Part shown: in pieces, positions 1 to 5,639 of the stretch
How positions within the stretch are numbered: position 1 is the first letter of the stretch
How the letters are laid out: every line of letters begins with the position of its first letter
Assembly: GCA_937925595.1 (NCBI GenBank)
Contig: CALALQ010000384.1
Span: forward strand, 1-5,639
DNA: 5,639 nucleotides
Origin: an uncultured Demequina sp.
GTDB lineage: Bacteria > Actinomycetota > Actinomycetes > Actinomycetales > Demequinaceae
Reading direction: 5' to 3'
Made by a program: the position numbers and the translations under genes
The notes under the pieces: model-generated
Seen by the model: the letters and a program-made list of their open reading frames with translations, nothing else
What the model was told of the DNA's origin: nothing
Database searches by the model: none

Positions 1-80
1 AGCAAATTCGCAGAGGGCCACTGCGCGCGGCTGACGTATCCCCTCTCGGCTGCCCCGACACCTTCACGCCTCGTCAGGCC
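1..80. other. Downstream flank of the Fic gene, no gene seen
   Basis: These 80 bases follow the Fic stop codon in the direction of transcription. I see no convincing coding start or RNA gene. A small inverted repeat at 68-79 (GCCT-CGTC-AGGC) lies directly after the stop codon. With only four base pairs and no U-tract it is too weak to call a terminator. Confidence 0.5.
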
Positions 81-1997
81 TTATAGCTGCGGCCCGAGGT
101 GCAGATCGGGTGTGGGTGGTTGGTGTTCATGTATGGCCGGAGGTCGGCTGTTCGGTTGTGGTGGTGTGTGGTGGACCTGCGGTGGTCCGTGGAGGGCCTT
201 CGCTGTCGAGAGCGGGCCCTGCTCCTCCCCTACCTCGTCGGCATGCGTGAGATTCCGGTGCGGCTCGCCGTCGGCGGGATTCGGTTTCGCTGCCTCTGGG
301 GCATCGTCGGTCCTGGTCGACGTGGCGTGACGAGGTTCCTCGCCCGCCTGGATTGCGGTGGTCAGCGGCTCGTAGGTCCCGTTGCGTTCCGGGGAATTCT
401 CCAGCAGGGCGTAGCTGCGGTGGACCAGCACATCCCAGTGCCTCTCGTACCGTTGCGCGGCGTCGACCGTGCCGCGATCCGGGGCGGCGGCGGGAAGCTC
501 GGTGGTGATGGCACGGGCGAGTTCGGCGGCGAAGGCTTCCCGGCCGGCAACTCGCATAGCGTCCTCGAGGGCCGGGTCCGGTTCGATGCCGTCGGGGGGA
601 TCATCGTGGTAGTTCGCTGCGTGGGTGGCGGCACGGAGCGCTTCGGGGTCGATGGTGCGCCAGTCGATCGTGCGGTCGGGGCGGTCGTGGACGAGCTGGT
701 CGGTCATGAGTACGACGGCGACCGACTGGACGCCTTCGGTTTCCTCCTGAATGGCGGCAATGTGGCGTCCGAGCTGATGGGGGTCGGTGAGAGTGTTCTC
801 GTCCGGGGCGGCGATCACCGGGCTGGTGTAGGCGGAGGTGTCGCTGACGATCGGCATGAAGTCGGTGTGCAGCTCACGGTGGATGACACTTGCGTGTAGT
901 TCGCTGCCGTCACCGGTGATTTCGCGGTGGGCGAGGTAGTCGGCGGTCCGCAGTGCCAACTCCCAGGTGATGAGGCGGCGCAGCCGGGCGGGGTCGCGCT
1001 CGTCAAAGGCATTGACCGGGGCTCCGGTGTCGTAGCGCATGGTGTTCTTGCCTGCTGCCGGGTCGAACAGGTCCTTGTAGCGGTGGTTCGGCTCGGGGAG
1101 TGCTGCGGCGGCGCGTTCGGCCGCGAGGGTGGAGGTGCCCTCGAGGATCCGGCGTACGGCGGCATCGTGTTCGGGACCGTAGTCGGTGCGTTCGGCCAGG
1201 TTCAGGCCGATGCGGACCAGAGCGTGAGCGTTGTCGAGTTCGGCTCCGCTCAAGGATCGCTCGCGGGGGATCTCCCAGAAGGTCTGGAAGGCCGCGTAGG
1301 GGCCGCTGCGATCACGGTCGTAGTCGCGCATCATCGCTAGGTGGCTGACCAGGGAAAGAGCGGGTCGGCCGGGCGCAGGCTCGATGGGTGCGTAGCCGGT
1401 GACCGGCACGACGGCGGGGGCGAGGACATCGGCGAGCAGTCTGGGATCTCCGCTCTCCGCGGTGACGTAGCGGGCTGCGGACAATGCAGCGAGATCGACG
1501 CGATCGGTGTCGATCACCCATCCAGCTTTGATGGCGACGCGCCGGAACAGCTCGAATTGGCTTCGAGAATTTCCGTCGGGGAAGGGATGGATTTCCGTCA
1601 TGCGTGCCCAGTAGTCGGCGAGGCGGGTGACGAAGGTGCGGTGATCGAGTCCGGTCAGGTTGTTCTCGTCGGCGAGGTCGGCGAACAGTTCCTCGACGTC
1701 GGTGGCGGTGTCCTCCGGGCTTGAGTGCGTGATCGGAAGGTTCCCCTGCGTGGTGGCCACGGTCTTGTACTGACCGGCCCATGAGTACACGCGATACAAA
1801 CCGCGCCGGTGGATCTCTCGCAGGAAATCGCCGGTGAACTTCTCGGGCGACGGGACCTGCGCGAACTCGTACATCCCAGCCGCGAAGGCTCTGTCCTCGA
1901 TGCGTTCGAGTAGGCGTGCATCAGTGATGCCGAGAAGGTTGATTCGGACGTCGGTTCCGGGGATGTAGCCTTCGGATTCGGCGGCCGATCCGGTCAC
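81..1997 (-). CDS. Fic-domain protein (putative toxin) with long C-terminal extension
   Basis: Fic proteins usually transfer AMP, or less often another phosphate-containing group, onto a hydroxyl of a target protein. The N-terminal ~195 residues look like a Fic core. A segment at 12-45 (NLLGITDARLLER) resembles the start of many bacterial Fic proteins. It is followed by YSWAGQYKTV at 71-80 and the signature HPFPDGNSR at 137-145, with catalytic His137, Phe139, Asp141, Gly142, Asn143 and Arg145. The canonical motif is HxFx(D/E)GNGRxxR. Here the second Gly is Ser144 and the final Arg is Phe148, so the usual ATP gamma-phosphate contact is missing. The target and exact transferred group cannot be predicted. 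Residues 200-560 match no domain I know, and 565-638 is a proline/histidine-rich, probably disordered tail. The start is GTG at 1997, overlapping the TGA of the preceding small gene (GTGA). That implies translational coupling and supports an antitoxin-toxin pair. Total length is about three times a minimal Fic protein. Confidence 0.85.
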   Translation of the reverse strand: MTGSAAESEGYIPGTDVRINLLGITDARLLERIEDRAFAAGMYEFAQVPSPEKFTGDFLREIHRRGLYRVYSWAGQYKTVATTQGNLPITHSSPEDTATDVEELFADLADENNLTGLDHRTFVTRLADYWARMTEIHPFPDGNSRSQFELFRRVAIKAGWVIDTDRVDLAALSAARYVTAESGDPRLLADVLAPAVVPVTGYAPIEPAPGRPALSLVSHLAMMRDYDRDRSGPYAAFQTFWEIPRERSLSGAELDNAHALVRIGLNLAERTDYGPEHDAAVRRILEGTSTLAAERAAAALPEPNHRYKDLFDPAAGKNTMRYDTGAPVNAFDERDPARLRRLITWELALRTADYLAHREITGDGSELHASVIHRELHTDFMPIVSDTSAYTSPVIAAPDENTLTDPHQLGRHIAAIQEETEGVQSVAVVLMTDQLVHDRPDRTIDWRTIDPEALRAATHAANYHDDPPDGIEPDPALEDAMRVAGREAFAAELARAITTELPAAAPDRGTVDAAQRYERHWDVLVHRSYALLENSPERNGTYEPLTTAIQAGEEPRHATSTRTDDAPEAAKPNPADGEPHRNLTHADEVGEEQGPLSTAKALHGPPQVHHTPPQPNSRPPAIHEHQPPTPDLHLGPQL

Positions 1998-2218
1998 TCC
2001 GAGTCCTCGCTGTGCGGGAGGAGCTCGTTGATCAGATCGTCGAGCGTTTCACCGGCCTCGAGCCTGTCGATGATCGTGCGGGGATCTTCGATGTCGAACT
2101 TGCCTGCCATTGCGTTGGCAGCGCGGATGTTCTGGGCAATGTGGTTCTTGAGAGCTTCCTCGCCATGTAGGGCGAATATCTCTCGGAGTGTCTGATCGTG
2201 GTTTTCCTTGTCGGTCAT
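1994..2218 (-). CDS. Putative small antitoxin paired with the Fic protein
   Basis: This 74-residue acidic protein is encoded directly upstream of the Fic gene and overlaps its start by 4 bp. That is the layout of class I Fic modules such as VbhA-VbhT, in which a small helical antitoxin blocks the ATP site. The C-terminal half (44-67, EDPRTIIDRLEAGETLDDLI then NELL) resembles the second half of VbhA-like antitoxins, which reads roughly 'PDP..v..ler...Ge...d.i..l'. The hallmark inhibitory motif [S/T]xxxE[G/N] is not found at the expected place (about 38-44). The ATG at 2218 is preceded by the purine-rich stretch AGGGGGGAG (2222-2230), a good ribosome-binding site. I see no promoter in the 66 bp before it, so it is probably co-transcribed with the DnaB-like gene. 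The antitoxin call rests mainly on position and size; it could instead be an unrelated coupled protein. Confidence 0.6.
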   Translation of the reverse strand: MTDKENHDQTLREIFALHGEEALKNHIAQNIRAANAMAGKFDIEDPRTIIDRLEAGETLDDLINELLPHSEDSE

Positions 2219-2284
2219 GGTCTCCCCCCTCGCGAGCGTCGAACTGTCAGAGCGGAGGCAGGCTCCTCTCCCCCATCGCTATGT
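2219..2284 (-). other. Short intergenic gap before the putative antitoxin
   Basis: The gap between the DnaB-like stop and the antitoxin start is 66 bp. It holds the antitoxin ribosome-binding site (2222-2230) and the 8-bp palindrome CTCGCGAG (2229-2236). No -10/-35 pair stands out, which argues for read-through from the upstream operon. A dedicated weak promoter cannot be excluded by eye. Confidence 0.4.
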
Positions 2285-2842
2285 CTACTTGATGTTCCCG
2301 ACGGTAGGCGCAGCGCCGATACGGGCGCGAACGTGCTCGAGCCGGCGGGTGGCGGTGCGTTGAGCACGGCCGATGGCGACCATGTGCTCGAACAGGTCGG
2401 CTTCGGGCAGGGTTTCGGCGGCTTCGGTGATGGCGGCTCCGGCGGTGCGAAAGCTGCGGCGGTAGGCGGCGCTGATGACGGCATGGGCGTAGTAGGGCGC
2501 GGCGGTGGGATCGGCGCCGGCGGTGGTGGCGGTGGTCAGGGCGTAGGCGAGTCGGCGGCCGTGGTGACCGGCGAGCCGACCGTGGCGCTCGAGGTGGGCC
2601 AGGACCATTGCGGGGTCGTGGGGCTGGCCGGTGTTCATCAGTGCGGCGATGGCGTCGAACAATTCGGCGTGGAGTGGCTGGTGGAAGTCGTCGGTGGTGA
2701 GCAGGTCCACGATGTCGGCAGCTGCGGCGCGGGTGGCGAACAGCAGCGCGCACAGCAGCAGGGTTTCGGTGTCGGCGTCTGGGGGCGCGAACTCGTCGGC
2801 GCTGAGGTAGCGGTCGAGATCGGTCTGGTCGGTGACGGTCAT
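2285..2842 (-). CDS. Stand-alone DnaB helicase N-terminal-domain-like protein
   Basis: The protein has 185 residues, and about 23-150 has the pattern of the DnaB replicative-helicase N-terminal (primase/loader-interacting) domain. An opening helix 'TETLLLCALLFATRAA' is followed by 'DIVDLLTTDDFHQPLHAELF' (43-62), 'DAIAALMNTGQPHDPAMVL' (63-81), a short 'ERHGRL' segment, and 'YYAHAVISAAYRR' (117-129). DnaB typically reads 'lL..edFy.p.h..if.ai..l...g.pvd...v...L...g.l' and then 'yA..v...a.rR'. There is no Walker A P-loop and no room for a RecA-like ATPase domain, so it cannot be a helicase itself. Inference: it may bind the host helicase, primase or loader, acting as adaptor, recruiter or inhibitor. 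Its ATG overlaps the preceding gene's stop (ATGA), and it sits inside an operon ending in a Fic module. The DnaB-N resemblance is from pattern recall, not a profile search. Confidence 0.7.
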   Translation of the reverse strand: MTVTDQTDLDRYLSADEFAPPDADTETLLLCALLFATRAAAADIVDLLTTDDFHQPLHAELFDAIAALMNTGQPHDPAMVLAHLERHGRLAGHHGRRLAYALTTATTAGADPTAAPYYAHAVISAAYRRSFRTAGAAITEAAETLPEADLFEHMVAIGRAQRTATRRLEHVRARIGAAPTVGNIK

Positions 2843-3111
2843 GCGCTGATCCGTTCGTCGAGGGCGTCGGCGATGTCGAGCACGGGAGTCGGGTCGGGGT
2901 GGCCGATGGCCGAGTGGCCGATGGCGGCGCGAGCGATGACGCTTCCGTCGATGGTGATGGTGACTGCGCTACCGGCGGGCGCACCGTAGGCGAGCGCGAG
3001 CGTGCGCGCTGCTTCGGCAGCGTCGGAGGCGGCGGCCGCGTGGGTGAAGGTGCAGCCAGAATCGGAGCGCGCAACGGTGGGCGCGGTCAGCGTGACGGTC
3101 CAGACGATCAT
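2839..3111 (-). CDS. Hypothetical protein, 90 residues
   Basis: I do not recognise this family. The sequence suggests a small beta-alpha-beta protein: strand-like residues 2-15 (IVWTVTLTAPTVA), an Ala-rich helix at about 25-43, a strand at about 48-60 (AVTITIDGSVIA), and a C-terminal acidic helix (about 77-90). Residues 62-70 hold the repeat AIGHSAIGH, encoded by a 12-bp direct repeat. There is no signal peptide or membrane segment. The ATG at 3111 has a near-ideal ribosome-binding site AAGGAG seven bases upstream. The stop overlaps the DnaB-like gene's ATG (ATGA), so the two are translationally coupled and probably functionally linked. Confidence 0.7.
   Translation of the reverse strand: MIVWTVTLTAPTVARSDSGCTFTHAAAASDAAEAARTLALAYGAPAGSAVTITIDGSVIARAAIGHSAIGHPDPTPVLDIADALDERISA
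2899..2925. repeat. 12-bp direct repeat inside the 90-residue gene
   Basis: GTGGCCGATGGC occurs at 2899-2910 and 2914-2925, a 15-bp period in frame with the gene. It produces the AIGH...AIGH duplication in the protein, most simply a small in-frame duplication. Confidence 0.7.
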
Positions 3112-3158
3112 TGCGGCGCTCCTTCGGCTTGACGGGGTTTCCCCAGGTACTCGTCCAT
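3108..3158 (-). CDS. Possible 16-codon leader ORF at the head of the operon
   Basis: An ATG at 3158 opens a 16-codon frame (MDEYLGKPRQAEGAPQ) whose TGA overlaps the ATG of the 90-residue gene as ATGA. It begins about 10 bases after the putative -10 GATAAT, so its transcript would be leaderless or carry only a few leader bases. The ribosome-binding site of the next gene (AAGGAG, 3119-3124) lies inside it. It may be a coupling or regulatory leader peptide, or simply a 5' leader that happens to be open. Evidence is positional only. Confidence 0.4.
   Translation of the reverse strand: MDEYLGKPRQAEGAPQ
3119..3124 (-). promoter_or_regulatory. Ribosome-binding site of the 90-residue gene
   Basis: Minus-strand AAGGAG lies seven bases before the ATG at 3111. 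It is the best Shine-Dalgarno match in the window and supports that start. It contrasts with the 155-residue and ParB-like genes, which have no usable Shine-Dalgarno. Confidence 0.75.
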
Positions 3159-3167
3159 TGTCGCTTA

Positions 3168-3173
3168 ATTATC
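3168..3173 (-). promoter_or_regulatory. Promoter P_A, -10 element
   Basis: Minus-strand GATAAT (5 of 6 to TATAAT) lies at the downstream edge of repeat array A, in nearly the same register as the -10 elements of P_B and P_C (one base different). Transcription would start around 3161-3162, just before the leader ORF. No TTGACA-like -35 is evident; that place is taken by the 11-bp repeats, suggesting dependence on a bound factor. Confidence 0.5.
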
Positions 3174-3182
3174 ATGCTTTGT

Positions 3183-3248
3183 GAAGCCTTTTCGATGAGT
3201 TTTACATGATTGTGTGGTTGTTTTTTGATTCTTTTGTGATGCGTGAGT
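3183..3248. repeat. 11-bp phased repeat array A (six degenerate units)
   Basis: Plus-strand units start at 3183, 3194, 3205, 3216, 3227 and 3238, with heads GAAG, GATG, CATG, GGTT, GATT and GATG. Each is followed by seven mostly T-rich bases, except the last, which is GC-rich. It is the most degenerate of the three arrays, but keeps the exact 11-bp period and the same placement upstream of a -10. On the transcribed strand, A-tracts recur about once per helical turn, expected to curve the DNA. Confidence 0.6.
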
Positions 3249-3263
3249 GAGGGCCGTGCCGGA

Positions 3264-3298
3264 GCCGTCGACCGGGGTTCGATGCCCCGGTCGACGGC
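3264..3298 (+). other. Perfect 14-bp hairpin resembling a tRNA acceptor/T-arm minihelix
   Basis: The arms at 3264-3277 and 3285-3298 are perfectly complementary around the loop TTCGATG (3278-3284). On the plus strand the parts fit a tRNA 3' end: T-stem CGGGG/CCCCG, a T-loop matching TTCRAnn, a 7-bp acceptor (3266-3272 with 3290-3296), G at the discriminator place (3297) and CCA (3298-3300). No D-arm or anticodon arm lies between the acceptor strand and T-stem, so it is not a full tRNA. It could be a tRNA-like structure, an attachment-site relic, a protein-binding dyad, or a terminator for the ParB-like gene whose T-loop match is chance. Confidence 0.5.
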
Positions 3299-3303
3299 CA
3301 TGC

Positions 3304-3320
3304 GTGCCGGGGGCCGGCAC
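3304..3320. other. Small GC-rich hairpin (7-bp stem)
   Basis: GTGCCGG and CCGGCAC flank a GGG loop. It lies between two longer hairpins in the non-coding gap after the ParB-like gene. The role is unknown; it may add to termination or to a structured 3' end. Confidence 0.4.
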
Positions 3321-3337
3321 CCGGCGAGTGGTCTGGC

Positions 3338-3368
3338 CCGGTGGGCGGCCGATACGACCGCCCACCGG
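3338..3368 (-). terminator. Putative terminator hairpin of the ParB-like gene
   Basis: A perfect 11-bp stem (3338-3348 with 3358-3368) with a 9-base loop starts eight bases after the ParB-like stop codon. It has no U-tract, as is usual for hairpin terminators in high-GC actinobacteria. The position directly after a stop codon is the main support. Confidence 0.6.
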
Positions 3369-3376
3369 AAGGGGCG

Positions 3377-4846
3377 TTACTGCTCGTCGAGGGGGTCGAG
3401 TCCGGCGGCGCGGCGCTCGATGTCGGCGAGGGTGTAGCCCTGGGCTTCGATGGCGCGCAGGTAGAACTGCGACAGGTCGGTGGGCTTGCGCCAGTGCTCG
3501 ACGCCGACCTGGGACTCAAGGGCGATGAGGATGTGGGCGCGCAGCAGGACCAGGGCGCGGGGGTCGGTGGCGCTGGCGAGCTTCGCGAGAATGTCGGACG
3601 TGGGGAGCATCTGTTCGGCCAGGGTGCGGGCGTGATAGGCGGCGGGGATCTGGGGCCACTTCATCAGCACTGTTGCCACGAATGAGGCGGTGCCCTTGGG
3701 GGCGGTCTTGCGGGTGGTCTGCTGGGCGATCCACTTGCGGCGGACCTCGGTGGCGGCTCGCCATTCGCGGTTGTTCTCGATCACTTCGCGCCGCTGAGCT
3801 GCGCGGTCCTCGGCACTTTGTTCCTGTTCGGACTCGGCGGGGCGGGGGTGTCCCCACCAGGTACGCCAAGGGGTGTCTTCGATATTGACGACGTGCCAGT
3901 ACAGCGTGGTCTCGTGGTTTTCGACGACGTTCTCGCGGGGAATCATCCATTCCTCGCGGGCATCGCCGTCGGGTAGCTCGTCCACGATGTAGTCTGCGTC
4001 GATCTCGTCGCCGCTCTCGCGGTCGAAATAGGTGGTGCAGCTGTAGACGTACAGCCCGAGGTGTCCGAGGGCGGCGACTTCTTCGATGGCGGGCGTGTTG
4101 CCTTCTTCGTCGGTGACGCGCTCGACCAGCTGGCTGGTCCCCTCCCCCACTCTCTCTTGAAGAGCACCAAGCGGCACGGCCGCGATGGAGTGTTCTGCGA
4201 GGTACGCCTCGGCGCGGGCCAGTGCGGCGTTGCGTTCGGTGCGGCGCAACCGTTCGGCGGCGAGTGCGTGGTCGAGTCGTCCGCTGGCGATAGCCCACTC
4301 GATGCGGCGGACGGCAGCGGGATCGTCGTCGAACTCGGCGAGGGCGGCGGCTTGTTCGATGGTCAGCTCGCCTCGTTGCACAGCGTCGCGCTGCTCGGTG
4401 TCGCGCAAGGTCAGGGCCGCCTCGATCTCGGTGCGGGGCGCCTTGGTGCGACGGGCGATCTTGGTGGAGGTCAGTCCGTGGTCGGCCAGGGTCTCGAACA
4501 GGGCCAGGCGTTCGCCGTTGGTGATCGCGGCGCGGTGTTCGTTCTCGCTCCACTGGGTGACGAGTCGTTCGACGGCGGCGTCGGTGCCATCGCCTTCGTC
4601 GCCGACGATGAGGGCGGGGATCTGGGTCAGTCCGGCCTCGAGGGCTGCGGCGGTGCGGCTGTGGCCGGTGAGCACGCGCAGGGGTCCGGCGGCGGTACGG
4701 CACACAGTGACGGGGGTCAGAACCCCTTGCTCTGCGATCGACTCGCGGAAGGCATCGGTCAGGCGCAGGTCATGGCGGATGTTGGAGTCGGTGAGCAGGT
4801 CAGCGGGGTAGACGGTGGCGAATTCGGCGGTGCTTCCGTTGTTCGT
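3377..4846 (-). CDS. ParB/Spo0J-like DNA-binding protein, apparent ACG start
   Basis: ParB-family proteins bind centromere-like sites and, with ParA, segregate DNA; relatives act as plasmid transcription regulators. Counted from the ACG at 4846 this one has 489 residues. Residues 12-48 give a typical ParB N-terminus (VYPADLLTDSNIRHD, then FRESIAEQGVLTPVTV). Next come RVLTGHSRTAAA (57-68), equivalent to the GxxR CTP/DNA-binding box (G61, R64), and a helix-turn-helix region at about 110-155 (NGERLALFETLADHGLTSTK onward). The C-terminal ~290 residues are unfamiliar, Trp- and Arg-rich in places (about 315-375). The first ATG/GTG/TTG in frame is GTG at 4705, which would remove 47 residues including the conserved N-terminus. 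A TGA at 4850-4852 closes the frame upstream. Only GTC, ACG, ATC and CTG codons remain as starts, and ACG sits exactly where the sister promoter has ATG. No ParA is present in the window. Confidence 0.8.
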   Translation of the reverse strand, partial: TNNGSTAEFATVYPADLLTDSNIRHDLRLTDAFRESIAEQGVLTPVTVCRTAAGPLRVLTGHSRTAAALEAGLTQIPALIVGDEGDGTDAAVERLVTQWSENEHRAAITNGERLALFETLADHGLTSTKIARRTKAPRTEIEAALTLRDTEQRDAVQRGELTIEQAAALAEFDDDPAAVRRIEWAIASGRLDHALAAERLRRTERNAALARAEAYLAEHSIAAVPLGALQERVGEGTSQLVERVTDEEGNTPAIEEVAALGHLGLYVYSCTTYFDRESGDEIDADYIVDELPDGDAREEWMIPRENVVENHETTLYWHVVNIEDTPWRTWWGHPRPAESEQEQSAEDRAAQRREVIENNREWRAATEVRRKWIAQQTTRKTAPKGTASFVATVLMKWPQIPAAYHARTLAEQMLPTSDILAKLASATDPRALVLLRAHILIALESQVGVEHWRKPTDLSQFYLRAIEAQGYTLADIERRAAGLDPLDEQ

Positions 4847-4852
4847 GACTCA

Positions 4853-4858
4853 AGTTTA
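4853..4858 (-). promoter_or_regulatory. Promoter P_B, -10 element (ParB-like gene)
   Basis: Minus-strand TAAACT fits the actinobacterial TAnnnT -10. Six bases separate it from the ACG at 4846, so the expected transcription start coincides with the start codon, giving a leaderless mRNA. No good -35 is visible; the phased repeats occupy that region. Confidence 0.6.
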
Positions 4859-4868
4859 CATATGTTTT

Positions 4869-4923
4869 GATGCTTTTTCGATGCTTTATTGGTGTTTATT
4901 AGATGATTGTTTGGTGACTGTTG
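4869..4923. repeat. 11-bp phased repeat array B (five units)
   Basis: Plus-strand units start at 4869, 4880, 4891, 4902 and 4913, all headed GATG or GGTG and followed by a mostly T-rich heptamer (for example GATGCTTTTTC, GATGCTTTATT). A sixth degenerate unit (4858-4868) merges with the -10. Spacing is exactly 11 bp with no gaps. It is a candidate operator or centromere site, and on the coding strand it puts A-tracts in helical phase. Confidence 0.8.
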
Positions 4924-4927
4924 TCAC
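4914..4927. promoter_or_regulatory. GTGA-N6-TCAC dyad, upstream end of P_B
   Basis: GTGACTGTTGTCAC is an inverted repeat with the spacing of CRP/GlxR-type sites (TGTGA-N6-TCACA), matching 8 of those 10 fixed bases. Its centre is 74.5 bases from the predicted transcript start. It overlaps the last 11-bp unit, so it may be part of the array's own protein-binding design rather than a CRP site. Confidence 0.45.
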
Positions 4928-4967
4928 TCTTTTTACCCTCTGAGCTGGGGGTTTCCGTGAAACGCAG

Positions 4968-4991
4968 ACGGCCCCGCCAGGGCGGGGCCGT
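4968..4991 (-). terminator. Strong hairpin terminator of the 155-residue gene
   Basis: ACGGCCCCGCC (4968-4978) and its exact complement (4981-4991) form a 10-11 bp GC-rich stem with a 2-4 base loop, four bases after the stop codon at 4996. On the minus strand it is followed by a weak U-containing tail (CTGCGTTTC). A second small inverted repeat, GTTTC-CGT-GAAAC (4951-4963), follows immediately. Confidence 0.8.
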
Positions 4992-4995
4992 TGGT

Positions 4996-5463
4996 TCAAT
5001 CTTCTATGCGGTCATGGATGGGCAGGATCATGGATCGGTGGCCGAGATACCGTTCGGACCGCTCGCCCAGTCTCGAGTCGGAGGTTCCGGCGTAGTTGCC
5101 TCCGAACATCACCACTCGTCCCGACTCGGTGAGTTCGTACCGACGACGGTCGGCGTTCCATTCGACTCTGACCAGAGCGGCATAGCTGCCTTCGATGAAG
5201 GCGTGGCGTCGAATCCGTACGGCGACGGTGGGGCTGATCTGCTCATGGCCGCCGACGTGGCTTCGCATTCCGTGGGGGGTGCAGCCGGACGGCAGTGACG
5301 TGATGCGGCCCGTGCGGGCGCGGCGCTCGTCGAGGACGCCGACCAGAAGAAGAGTGTCGGCGGCGGCGCTGATACCGCCGTTGGTGCAGTCGCCGAGGCG
5401 GTGGGCGCGGTAGACGTCGAGCAGGAGACCGGCGGGGCGATGGTCGTTCTCGTTGTTGTTCAT
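4996..5463 (-). CDS. Conserved-looking hypothetical protein, 155 residues
   Basis: The function is unknown. Residues 25-31 (DCTNGGI) and 118-131 (VVMFGGNYAGTSDS, then R) followed by PIHDRIE (148-154) recall a family of small phage and plasmid proteins with a 'DCTNGG ... MFGGNf..tSDSRf ... vHDR.E' pattern; this is from memory. Other visible parts are a helical N-terminus (11-22) and a basic central stretch with probable beta strands (78-112). There is no signal peptide, membrane span or known catalytic motif. The ATG at 5463 follows an in-frame TAA 12 bases upstream and has AGAGG too close to serve as a Shine-Dalgarno. It lies six bases after a -10, so a leaderless transcript is likely. It is a monocistronic unit between its own promoter and terminator. 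Confidence 0.75.
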   Translation of the reverse strand: MNNNENDHRPAGLLLDVYRAHRLGDCTNGGISAAADTLLLVGVLDERRARTGRITSLPSGCTPHGMRSHVGGHEQISPTVAVRIRRHAFIEGSYAALVRVEWNADRRRYELTESGRVVMFGGNYAGTSDSRLGERSERYLGHRSMILPIHDRIED

Positions 5464-5469
5464 ACCTCT

Positions 5470-5475
5470 AGTTTA
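5470..5475 (-). promoter_or_regulatory. Promoter P_C, -10 element (155-residue gene)
   Basis: Minus-strand TAAACT, the same hexamer and flank (TGTAAACT) as P_B, ends six bases before the ATG at 5463, implying a leaderless mRNA. As in P_B there is no recognisable -35, and the 11-bp array covers the position. Confidence 0.65.
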
Positions 5476-5485
5476 CATCTGTTTT

Positions 5486-5540
5486 GATGCTTTTCCGATG
5501 TTTTCTTGGTGTCTTTCCGGTGCTTTTCTGGTGATGTCGG
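5486..5540. repeat. 11-bp phased repeat array C (five units)
   Basis: Plus-strand units start at 5486, 5497, 5508, 5519 and 5530, headed GATG, GATG, GGTG, GGTG and GGTG. All but the last are followed by pyrimidine-rich heptamers (for example CTTTTCC, TTTTCTT). Together with a degenerate unit at 5475-5485 it aligns base for base with array B. GRTG is invariant in all ten full units of B and C. Confidence 0.8.
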
Positions 5541-5544
5541 TCAC
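5531..5544. promoter_or_regulatory. GTGA-N6-TCAC dyad, upstream end of P_C
   Basis: GTGATGTCGGTCAC, extended as GGTGA-N6-TCACA, matches 9 of the 10 fixed positions of the CRP/GlxR consensus. Its centre is 74.5 bases from the predicted start of the 155-residue gene, identical to the dyad at P_B. Conserved sequence and distance argue that it binds something. Confidence 0.5.
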
Positions 5545-5639
5545 ACGTTTATAGGCTCTGACCTGCGGTTTTGCGGGTGTATCGGGGGTTCGGTGGCGGT
5601 GGTGGAGCGGGTACCTCGGTCGGTCGGTGCGGCCTGGTG
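5545..5639. other. Unresolved window edge
   Basis: On the minus strand, two frames enter from beyond the window and end at stops (TAA near 5550, TGA near 5541). Either could be the C-terminus of an upstream gene; one is Pro-rich. On the plus strand, GTG at 5593 preceded by GGGGG opens a frame that runs off the end (VAVVERVPRSVGAAW), a possible divergent gene. Neither can be decided from 95 bases. Confidence 0.25.

Follow-up and report, generated by a model that had tools for sequence, protein, structure and literature searches.

Three tandem repeat arrays, here called A, B and C, lie at promoters in a 5,639-nucleotide stretch of DNA from an uncultured Demequina sp. (assembly GCA_937925595.1, contig CALALQ010000384.1, positions 1 to 5,639), which as a whole we call the window. 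All three belong to minus-strand genes: A precedes the genes of a 90-amino-acid (aa) protein, a DnaB-N protein, a 74-aa protein and a Fic protein, B that of a ParB-like protein, and C that of a 155-aa protein (Table 1). The original prediction described three gap-free arrays of GRTG plus seven bases, and on the plus strand B (4869-4923) and C (5486-5540) are just that, with five units each and GRTG intact in all ten. Array A (3183-3248) has six units and the same 11-bp period, but it is degenerate and keeps GRTG in only two of the six. The evidence set out here suggests that such arrays are operators through which a partition protein may time the genes of a plasmid's leading region.

The longest run of CAYC (GRTG on the other strand) at 11-bp spacing in the window is five, a length that none of 2000 dinucleotide shuffles reached (5/2000 reached four). 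Identity at lag 11 is 0.60 in A, 0.68 in B and 0.61 in C, and in each case 0/5000 shuffles were as high; when any lag from 6 to 23 was allowed, 1, 0 and 10 of 5000 shuffles, respectively, matched the array. In both B and C, 3 bp separate the end of the last unit from a -10-like TAAACT, which is followed by 6 nt to the start-codon position. In addition, the distal end of both carries a GTGA-N6-TCAC palindrome that the original prediction had not mentioned.

Table 1. Arrays, promoter elements and genes of the window (minus-strand units are listed in the order given by the analysis).
Feature	Position	Strand	Remarks
Array C	5479..5533	-	Five 11-bp units CACCAGAAAAG CACCGGAAAGA CACCAAGAAAA CATCGGAAAAG CATCAAAACAG; matrix score 58.7, row in training set
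GTGA-N6-TCAC palindrome, distal end of array C	5531..5544	.	Located by counting; centred at -74.5 from the start codon in comparable modules
-10-like hexamer TAAACT of promoter C	5470..5475	-	6 nt before ATG at 5463; apparently leaderless
Array B	4862..4916	-	CACCAAACAAT CATCTAATAAA CACCAATAAAG CATCGAAAAAG CATCAAAACAT; matrix score 63.6, row in training set
GTGA-N6-TCAC palindrome, distal end of array B	4914..4927	.	From the sequence
-10-like hexamer TAAACT of promoter B	4853..4858	-	From the sequence
Array A	3176..3241	-	Six degenerate units CATCACAAAAG AATCAAAAAAC AACCACACAAT CATGTAAAACT CATCGAAAAGG CTTCACAAAGC; palindrome not seen
155-aa protein gene behind array C	4996..5463	-	No Pfam match; relatives in 21 plasmid records
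ParB-like protein gene (490 codons) behind array B	3377..4846	-	HTH_ParB E 0.001, below Pfam cut-off
Putative leaderless 16-codon open reading frame behind array A	3108..3158	-	From a reading of the sequence; its stop overlaps the start of the 90-aa gene
90-aa protein gene	2839..3111	-	First annotated gene behind array A
DnaB N-terminal-domain protein gene	2285..2842	-	PF00772, E 1.2e-14

The window matches Rhodococcus plasmids, with 13 records covering at least 80% of it, and by this similarity it can be placed in a family of Rhodococcus plasmids that carry MOBF relaxases. A MobF relaxase is encoded in all 11 plasmids studied, and always on the array strand. Searching beyond the window for further arrays, as had been advised, was productive: a 20-base array core (up to three mismatches) gave 42 matches across 11/11 plasmids, three or four in each and on a single strand per plasmid, and the reversed-pattern control gave none. 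According to the gene tables, the genes preceded by arrays are a DUF4192 gene, a cluster of small genes with DUF3560, the 155-aa gene and the ParB-like gene, not all of them in every plasmid; the DUF4192 array is the one closest to mobF. Arrays of the A type stand before the 90-aa gene, in the same register, in 12/12 rows compared by eye. The genes are ordered and oriented as expected for a leading region, in which they would point toward the transfer origin, oriT.

A BLAST search with the array gave matches in 14 records. Phage matches were short and weak (best E 0.1), and we rejected the idea that phages carry the arrays. Similarly, matches of the upstream element in nine Streptomyces, Kitasatospora, Nocardioides and Arthrobacter records (E 0.4-5) were taken as chance; two of the nine were inspected, and one lies within a gene and the other is intergenic. 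Within one Rhodococcus plasmid (L001), the 200 bp upstream of the arrays around 10659 and 38729 look identical, which suggests gene conversion between modules.

For a closer look at the phase, 43 distinct array rows were aligned, leaving out L056 position 49, which lacks 70 bp upstream at the record start. The 11-bp phase is kept across homologous loci: array length changes by whole units only, with five units in 41 rows and exactly four in the other two, where the palindrome is displaced by 11 bp. The TAAACT hexamer is present in 35/43 rows and an ATG or GTG at the aligned start codon in 41/43, the exceptions being the window's array B row (ACG) and the L055 row (one extra base before ATG). 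Among the 41 five-unit arrays, 24 have all five CAYC cores intact and 35 an intact GTGA-N6-TCAC; CATC is found in unit 4 in 40 of them and in unit 5 in 40. Mean information is 1.72-1.91 bits at the CAYC positions and 1.30-1.76 bits at the remaining positions of the unit.

The palindrome, too, has a preferred place. With a loose pattern its centre lies at -74.5 from the start codon in 4/4 modules of L001 and, in two other plasmids to which we return below, in 3/4 modules of P. equi and 2/3 of ZPP; in both four-unit arrays it lies at -63.5. The two whole plasmids L001-L004 contain TGTGA-N6-TCAC[AC] eight times, and 8/8 are at arrays. The palindrome resembles the CRP/GlxR consensus, and it may be a second, separate input. 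Host factors alone could make use of such an arrangement, with the phased A-tracts acting as an extended UP element or as curved DNA beside a CRP/GlxR-type activator on the palindrome, or with Lsr2-type silencing of AT-rich DNA; the constant spacing speaks for this, yet we consider it improbable. On average, CAYC is no less conserved than the A-tract positions; an array without an intact palindrome is seen, by eye, in array A and at the par promoter described below; and host factors would leave unexplained the plasmid-specific motifs common to par promoters. The intrinsic curvature that had been predicted from phased A-tracts found no specific support either. A wedge model places the arrays at the 97.6-98.3 percentile of the window; however, shuffles of the same composition bent as much in 58 (A), 93 (B) and 39 (C) of 300 cases, so the curvature comes mostly from composition and not from phasing.

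The par promoter is where the arrays meet plasmid partition. In L011, the nearest relative of the window, par genes begin about 270 bp past the window end, and by sequence the par operon near the arrays appears to be of type Ib, encoding ParA and then a small CB_ParB_C-like protein. We built a scoring matrix from the 41 five-unit arrays, with array A and the par promoter outside the training set; the best four units of array A score 33.2. A scan of two whole plasmids recovered the strong and the A-type arrays; above a score of 14 it also gave, in both plasmids, the ParA-operon promoter and, in one, a stretch after a DUF2637 gene. The par promoter scores 16.7 in L001 and 16.2 in L003, and 20 locally shuffled 50-kb sequences reached at most 1.6; in strain HM1 its score is 38.3. 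This weaker array has the same register relative to the -10 as the main arrays, and it is visible by eye in 11/11 relatives. Aligned with the module of the ParB-like gene over 70 bp without gaps, it has 44 identical positions (a count derived from the score), which 0/60 shuffles equalled.

The array follows the identity of the par protein. A genome scan for par loci gave eight, with an array counted at a score of at least 8: arrays stand at 5/5 loci whose par protein is at least 75% identical, at 0/3 loci with partial matches of 38-50%, and at 0/10 loci of other plasmids. The DUF2637 stretch is a degenerate 11-bp repeat of about seven units after that gene (L001 9973-10055; L003 33514 downwards), possibly an extra site. 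A separate direct-repeat centromere upstream of parA was looked for in L001 and rejected, only two families of two copies each being found there.

The second gene of the par operon encodes a 113-aa product in the array family. PF18064, the centromere-binding ParB family, is precomputed in 4/8 of its homologues, and the best PDB match of the homologue profile is 3no7 (E 0.0019), described in the match listing as a putative plasmid related protein, which we take to be pCXC100 ParB. ParA itself matches AAA_31 (E 3.4e-37) and CbiA and is thus a Walker ATPase, not an actin-like ParM; an R1-type parMRC system was rejected on these grounds. The array repeated before several presumed early-entering genes, together with its weaker copy before the par genes, suggests that one partition protein controls them all. 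It seems to us somewhat better than an even bet that the protein which binds the arrays and sets the timing of the presumed leading-region genes is the centromere-binding protein of the par operon and not the ParB-like protein.

The mechanism we propose runs as follows. Five 11-bp sites, arranged head to tail and spaced at about a helical turn, would together make each array an operator. It would extend from around -16 to -70 at a promoter that looks leaderless, in what we presume to be the leading region of a conjugative MOBF plasmid. The probable binder would be the plasmid's own CB_ParB_C-type (ribbon-helix-helix, RHH) protein of about 113 aa. In a resident plasmid this protein would bind cooperatively and repress the leading-region genes as well as the operon that encodes it, and the arrays would perhaps also serve as several centromere sites. 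After transfer, the leading-region genes would fire in a burst until the par protein accumulates, because, we propose, the recipient lacks it.

If par and leading-region promoters share an operator here, they may do so elsewhere. Sharing was tested in five further actinobacterial plasmids, using motifs whose training sites were reiterated ones other than the par promoter; in the record W18 no ParA match reached the E-value cut-off, and W19-W21 lay outside the tested set. Mismatch cut-offs gave 5 training sites in Dietzia, 14 in P. equi and 12 in ZPP (two of which are far from the rest and may be chance), and we discarded matches that lay no more than 45-50 bp from a training site. The par promoter was then the top non-training match plasmid-wide in all three: 24.1 in Dietzia (next 11.5), 15.7 in P. 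equi (6.3) and 18.8 in ZPP (14.5), although the par promoter sequences of these plasmids had been seen and compared in pairs before the ranking. The P. equi and ZPP cases are not independent, since a related motif is common to both and their par proteins are related (82/149 identical). The par protein of the array family, 28/91 identical to that of P. equi, pairs with another motif. Counting the array family once, operator sharing between par and leading-region promoters appears in 4/6 plasmids. In R. erythropolis pR85A (W17), several GTAATGCCAGCATTGCTGCCATTAC-like repeat copies lie upstream of parA at about 61834-62652, a possible centromere.

It is important to set beside this the points that speak for caution about the par protein and its shared operator. 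At the par promoter the array is degenerate in most of the array family, with a score of 10.8 in R. phenolicus, and the DUF2637 stretch (score 19.8 in L003) stands at no obvious promoter and has a 1-bp phase shift in 2/7 plasmids. The L001 par protein has no Pfam match, the L003 and L014 copies reach only E 0.12-0.13, and the AlphaFold model is poor (predicted local distance difference test score, pLDDT, 60.7), without the expected strand and too weak to confirm the fold. The oriT was not located, and its presumed position in these plasmids is inferred. Among the other plasmids, one place in ZPP ranked above the par promoter and another had an equal score before the neighbours of training sites were dropped. 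The Nocardia par promoter was outside the top 8 on a 36-kb locus, and sharing was not seen there. Finally, the par promoter of pR85A has repeats of its own, confined to the par region among the ten best matches of its upstream sequence, and sharing was not seen in this plasmid either.

Other small RHH-type proteins of the plasmids are also to be considered as binders. A 61-aa HicB-like protein, encoded beside rep, or one of two tandem CB_ParB_C paralogues might bind the arrays, with the par promoter as one further target. All are present in the array plasmids: the HicB-like gene is above cut-off in 11/11 of these and 0/10 others, the CB_ParB_C pair in 11/11 and also in 2/10 others. However, these genes sit on the shared backbone, and such co-occurrence with the arrays is therefore expected anyway. 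Autoregulation is usual for such regulators, but no array scoring at least 14 was found at the promoters of these genes in L001-L004, and the par link is also seen in P. equi, where neither PF18064 nor HicB was matched in the record. We regard these proteins as unlikely binders.

The original prediction pointed to the ParB-like protein, while allowing for a different binder, and proposed a centromere or operator next to its gene. In kind this was well aimed: a weaker array in the same register stands at a type Ib par promoter, and the known proteins on such repeats bind partition operators. The choice of protein was probably wrong. The ParB-like protein does have a ParB-type helix-turn-helix (HTH), below curated cut-offs, its own promoter carries an array, and in P. 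equi its gene is directly upstream of parA. On the other hand, its relatives occur in 264 plasmid records against the 14 with a BLAST array match, and in the array family its gene is outside the par operon, one of several array-preceded genes. ParB HTH proteins usually bind palindromic parS sites. Taken together, we give this protein little chance of being the binder.

Leading-region promoters may also work in another way, as single-stranded Frpo/ssi elements, which are reiterated promoters before leading-region genes (PMC11541004). As described in the cited passages these need a folded single strand. The place and orientation of the arrays would suit promoters active on the entering strand, but the presumed transferred strand does not fold at the five array promoters in our test of 12 stretches (z 0.05, -1.15, 0.37, 0.25 and -0.72), and with values of -1.15 to 0.37 we rejected Frpo-like folding; we hold this explanation to be very improbable for the arrays. 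The other seven stretches were modules of other plasmids, with z of -5.66 and -5.70 in R. erythropolis, -3.20 in Nocardia, -2.19 in Dietzia, -1.59 in Gordonia, and -1.19 and -1.43 in P. equi. Strong hairpins on the presumed transferred strand lie at leading-region promoters of pR85A (L010 28900-29023 and 19840-19964) and Nocardia (L008 13260-13385), and these are candidate single-strand promoters in actinobacteria.

Among known systems, StbA of R388 seems the closest precedent. The stbDRs of this MOBF11 plasmid are 9-bp direct repeats (TTGCATCAT) in two groups of five, with 2 bp between neighbours and thus an 11-bp period, and three further maintenance promoters carry two or three copies; StbA, a segregation protein, is described as repressing its own and leading-region promoters, with an overshoot after transfer (PMC3098194, PMC3937220). 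The Rhodococcus arrays are likewise 11-bp-period direct repeats in fives at several promoters, and the unit has CATCA in common with the R388 repeat as published in these sources. A difference is that R388 stability, as reported there, does not need the ATPase StbB, whereas the Rhodococcus array stands at a ParA operon with a CB_ParB_C-kind protein. No model for StbA was matched by the 10 L001 proteins searched in NCBIfam, in which the existence of an StbA model was not checked.

The second precedent is omega (ParB) of pSM19035, also from a type Ib par system, a small RHH protein that binds adjoining repeats, which lie across several promoters and act both as operator and as centromere (PMC9499535). 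Its repeats are 7-bp heptads in mixed orientation at the copS, delta and omega promoters, in contrast to 11-bp units in one orientation at mostly presumed leading-region genes. Both systems are more apt than the parC/ParR (ParM) system of R1, with which the arrays had originally been compared. Reg_p576 (pLS20 family, clade II) is an RHH repressor that silences several establishment promoters in donors, and shared upstream sequences define its regulon (PMC8708921); the cited passages do not call it a partition protein or describe its operators as 11-bp arrays. The pCXC100 ParB, a CB_ParB_C protein, has a centromere described as direct repeats only (PMC5016525). It is of the same family as the proposed binder. 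We know of no leading-region role for it. A BldC-type operator was rejected on the repeats alone, as the 11-bp unit with its CAYC core differs from the 9-bp AATTXXXX(C) given for BldC (PMC5859096, in the part cited). By these analogies, the Rhodococcus system would combine features of StbA, omega and Reg_p576 with another protein family.

Some further details concern the genes behind the arrays. The L001 relative of the ParB-like protein matches TIGR00180 (E 9.6e-14), below cut-off. In the window, the ACG noted above is at 4844-4846 (-), the codon aligned with the start of the gene in relatives, and the list of open reading frames opens this frame at GTG 4705. The 16-codon frame running into the 90-aa gene has a similar arrangement in relatives, by eye. 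Also behind array A is the Fic-domain protein (81-2218, minus strand), and a small gene upstream of it may encode its antitoxin.

To our knowledge, little is known about how actinobacterial plasmids control when the genes that face a new host are expressed, and a literature search (titles, open-licence papers) returned none on the timing of establishment genes by these plasmids. We see about an even chance of a wider rule, in which several families of actinobacterial plasmids each have one plasmid-specific operator common to the par operon and the leading-region promoters. The centromere-binding protein would then double as a sensor of resident or newly arrived status and tie vertical inheritance to a burst of establishment genes. 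The operator would change as the protein diverges (11-bp arrays, 43-bp-spaced pairs, palindromic modules), and the frame, a palindrome at -74.5 and a leaderless start, would be kept in some families. If our reading of the arrays is right, the operator predicts the establishment regulon from sequence alone and names the gene of its regulator, and partition-linked control like that of R388 arises with another protein family. It would also make the 155-aa protein, the DUF3560 and DUF4192 proteins and the ParB-like protein candidate establishment factors.

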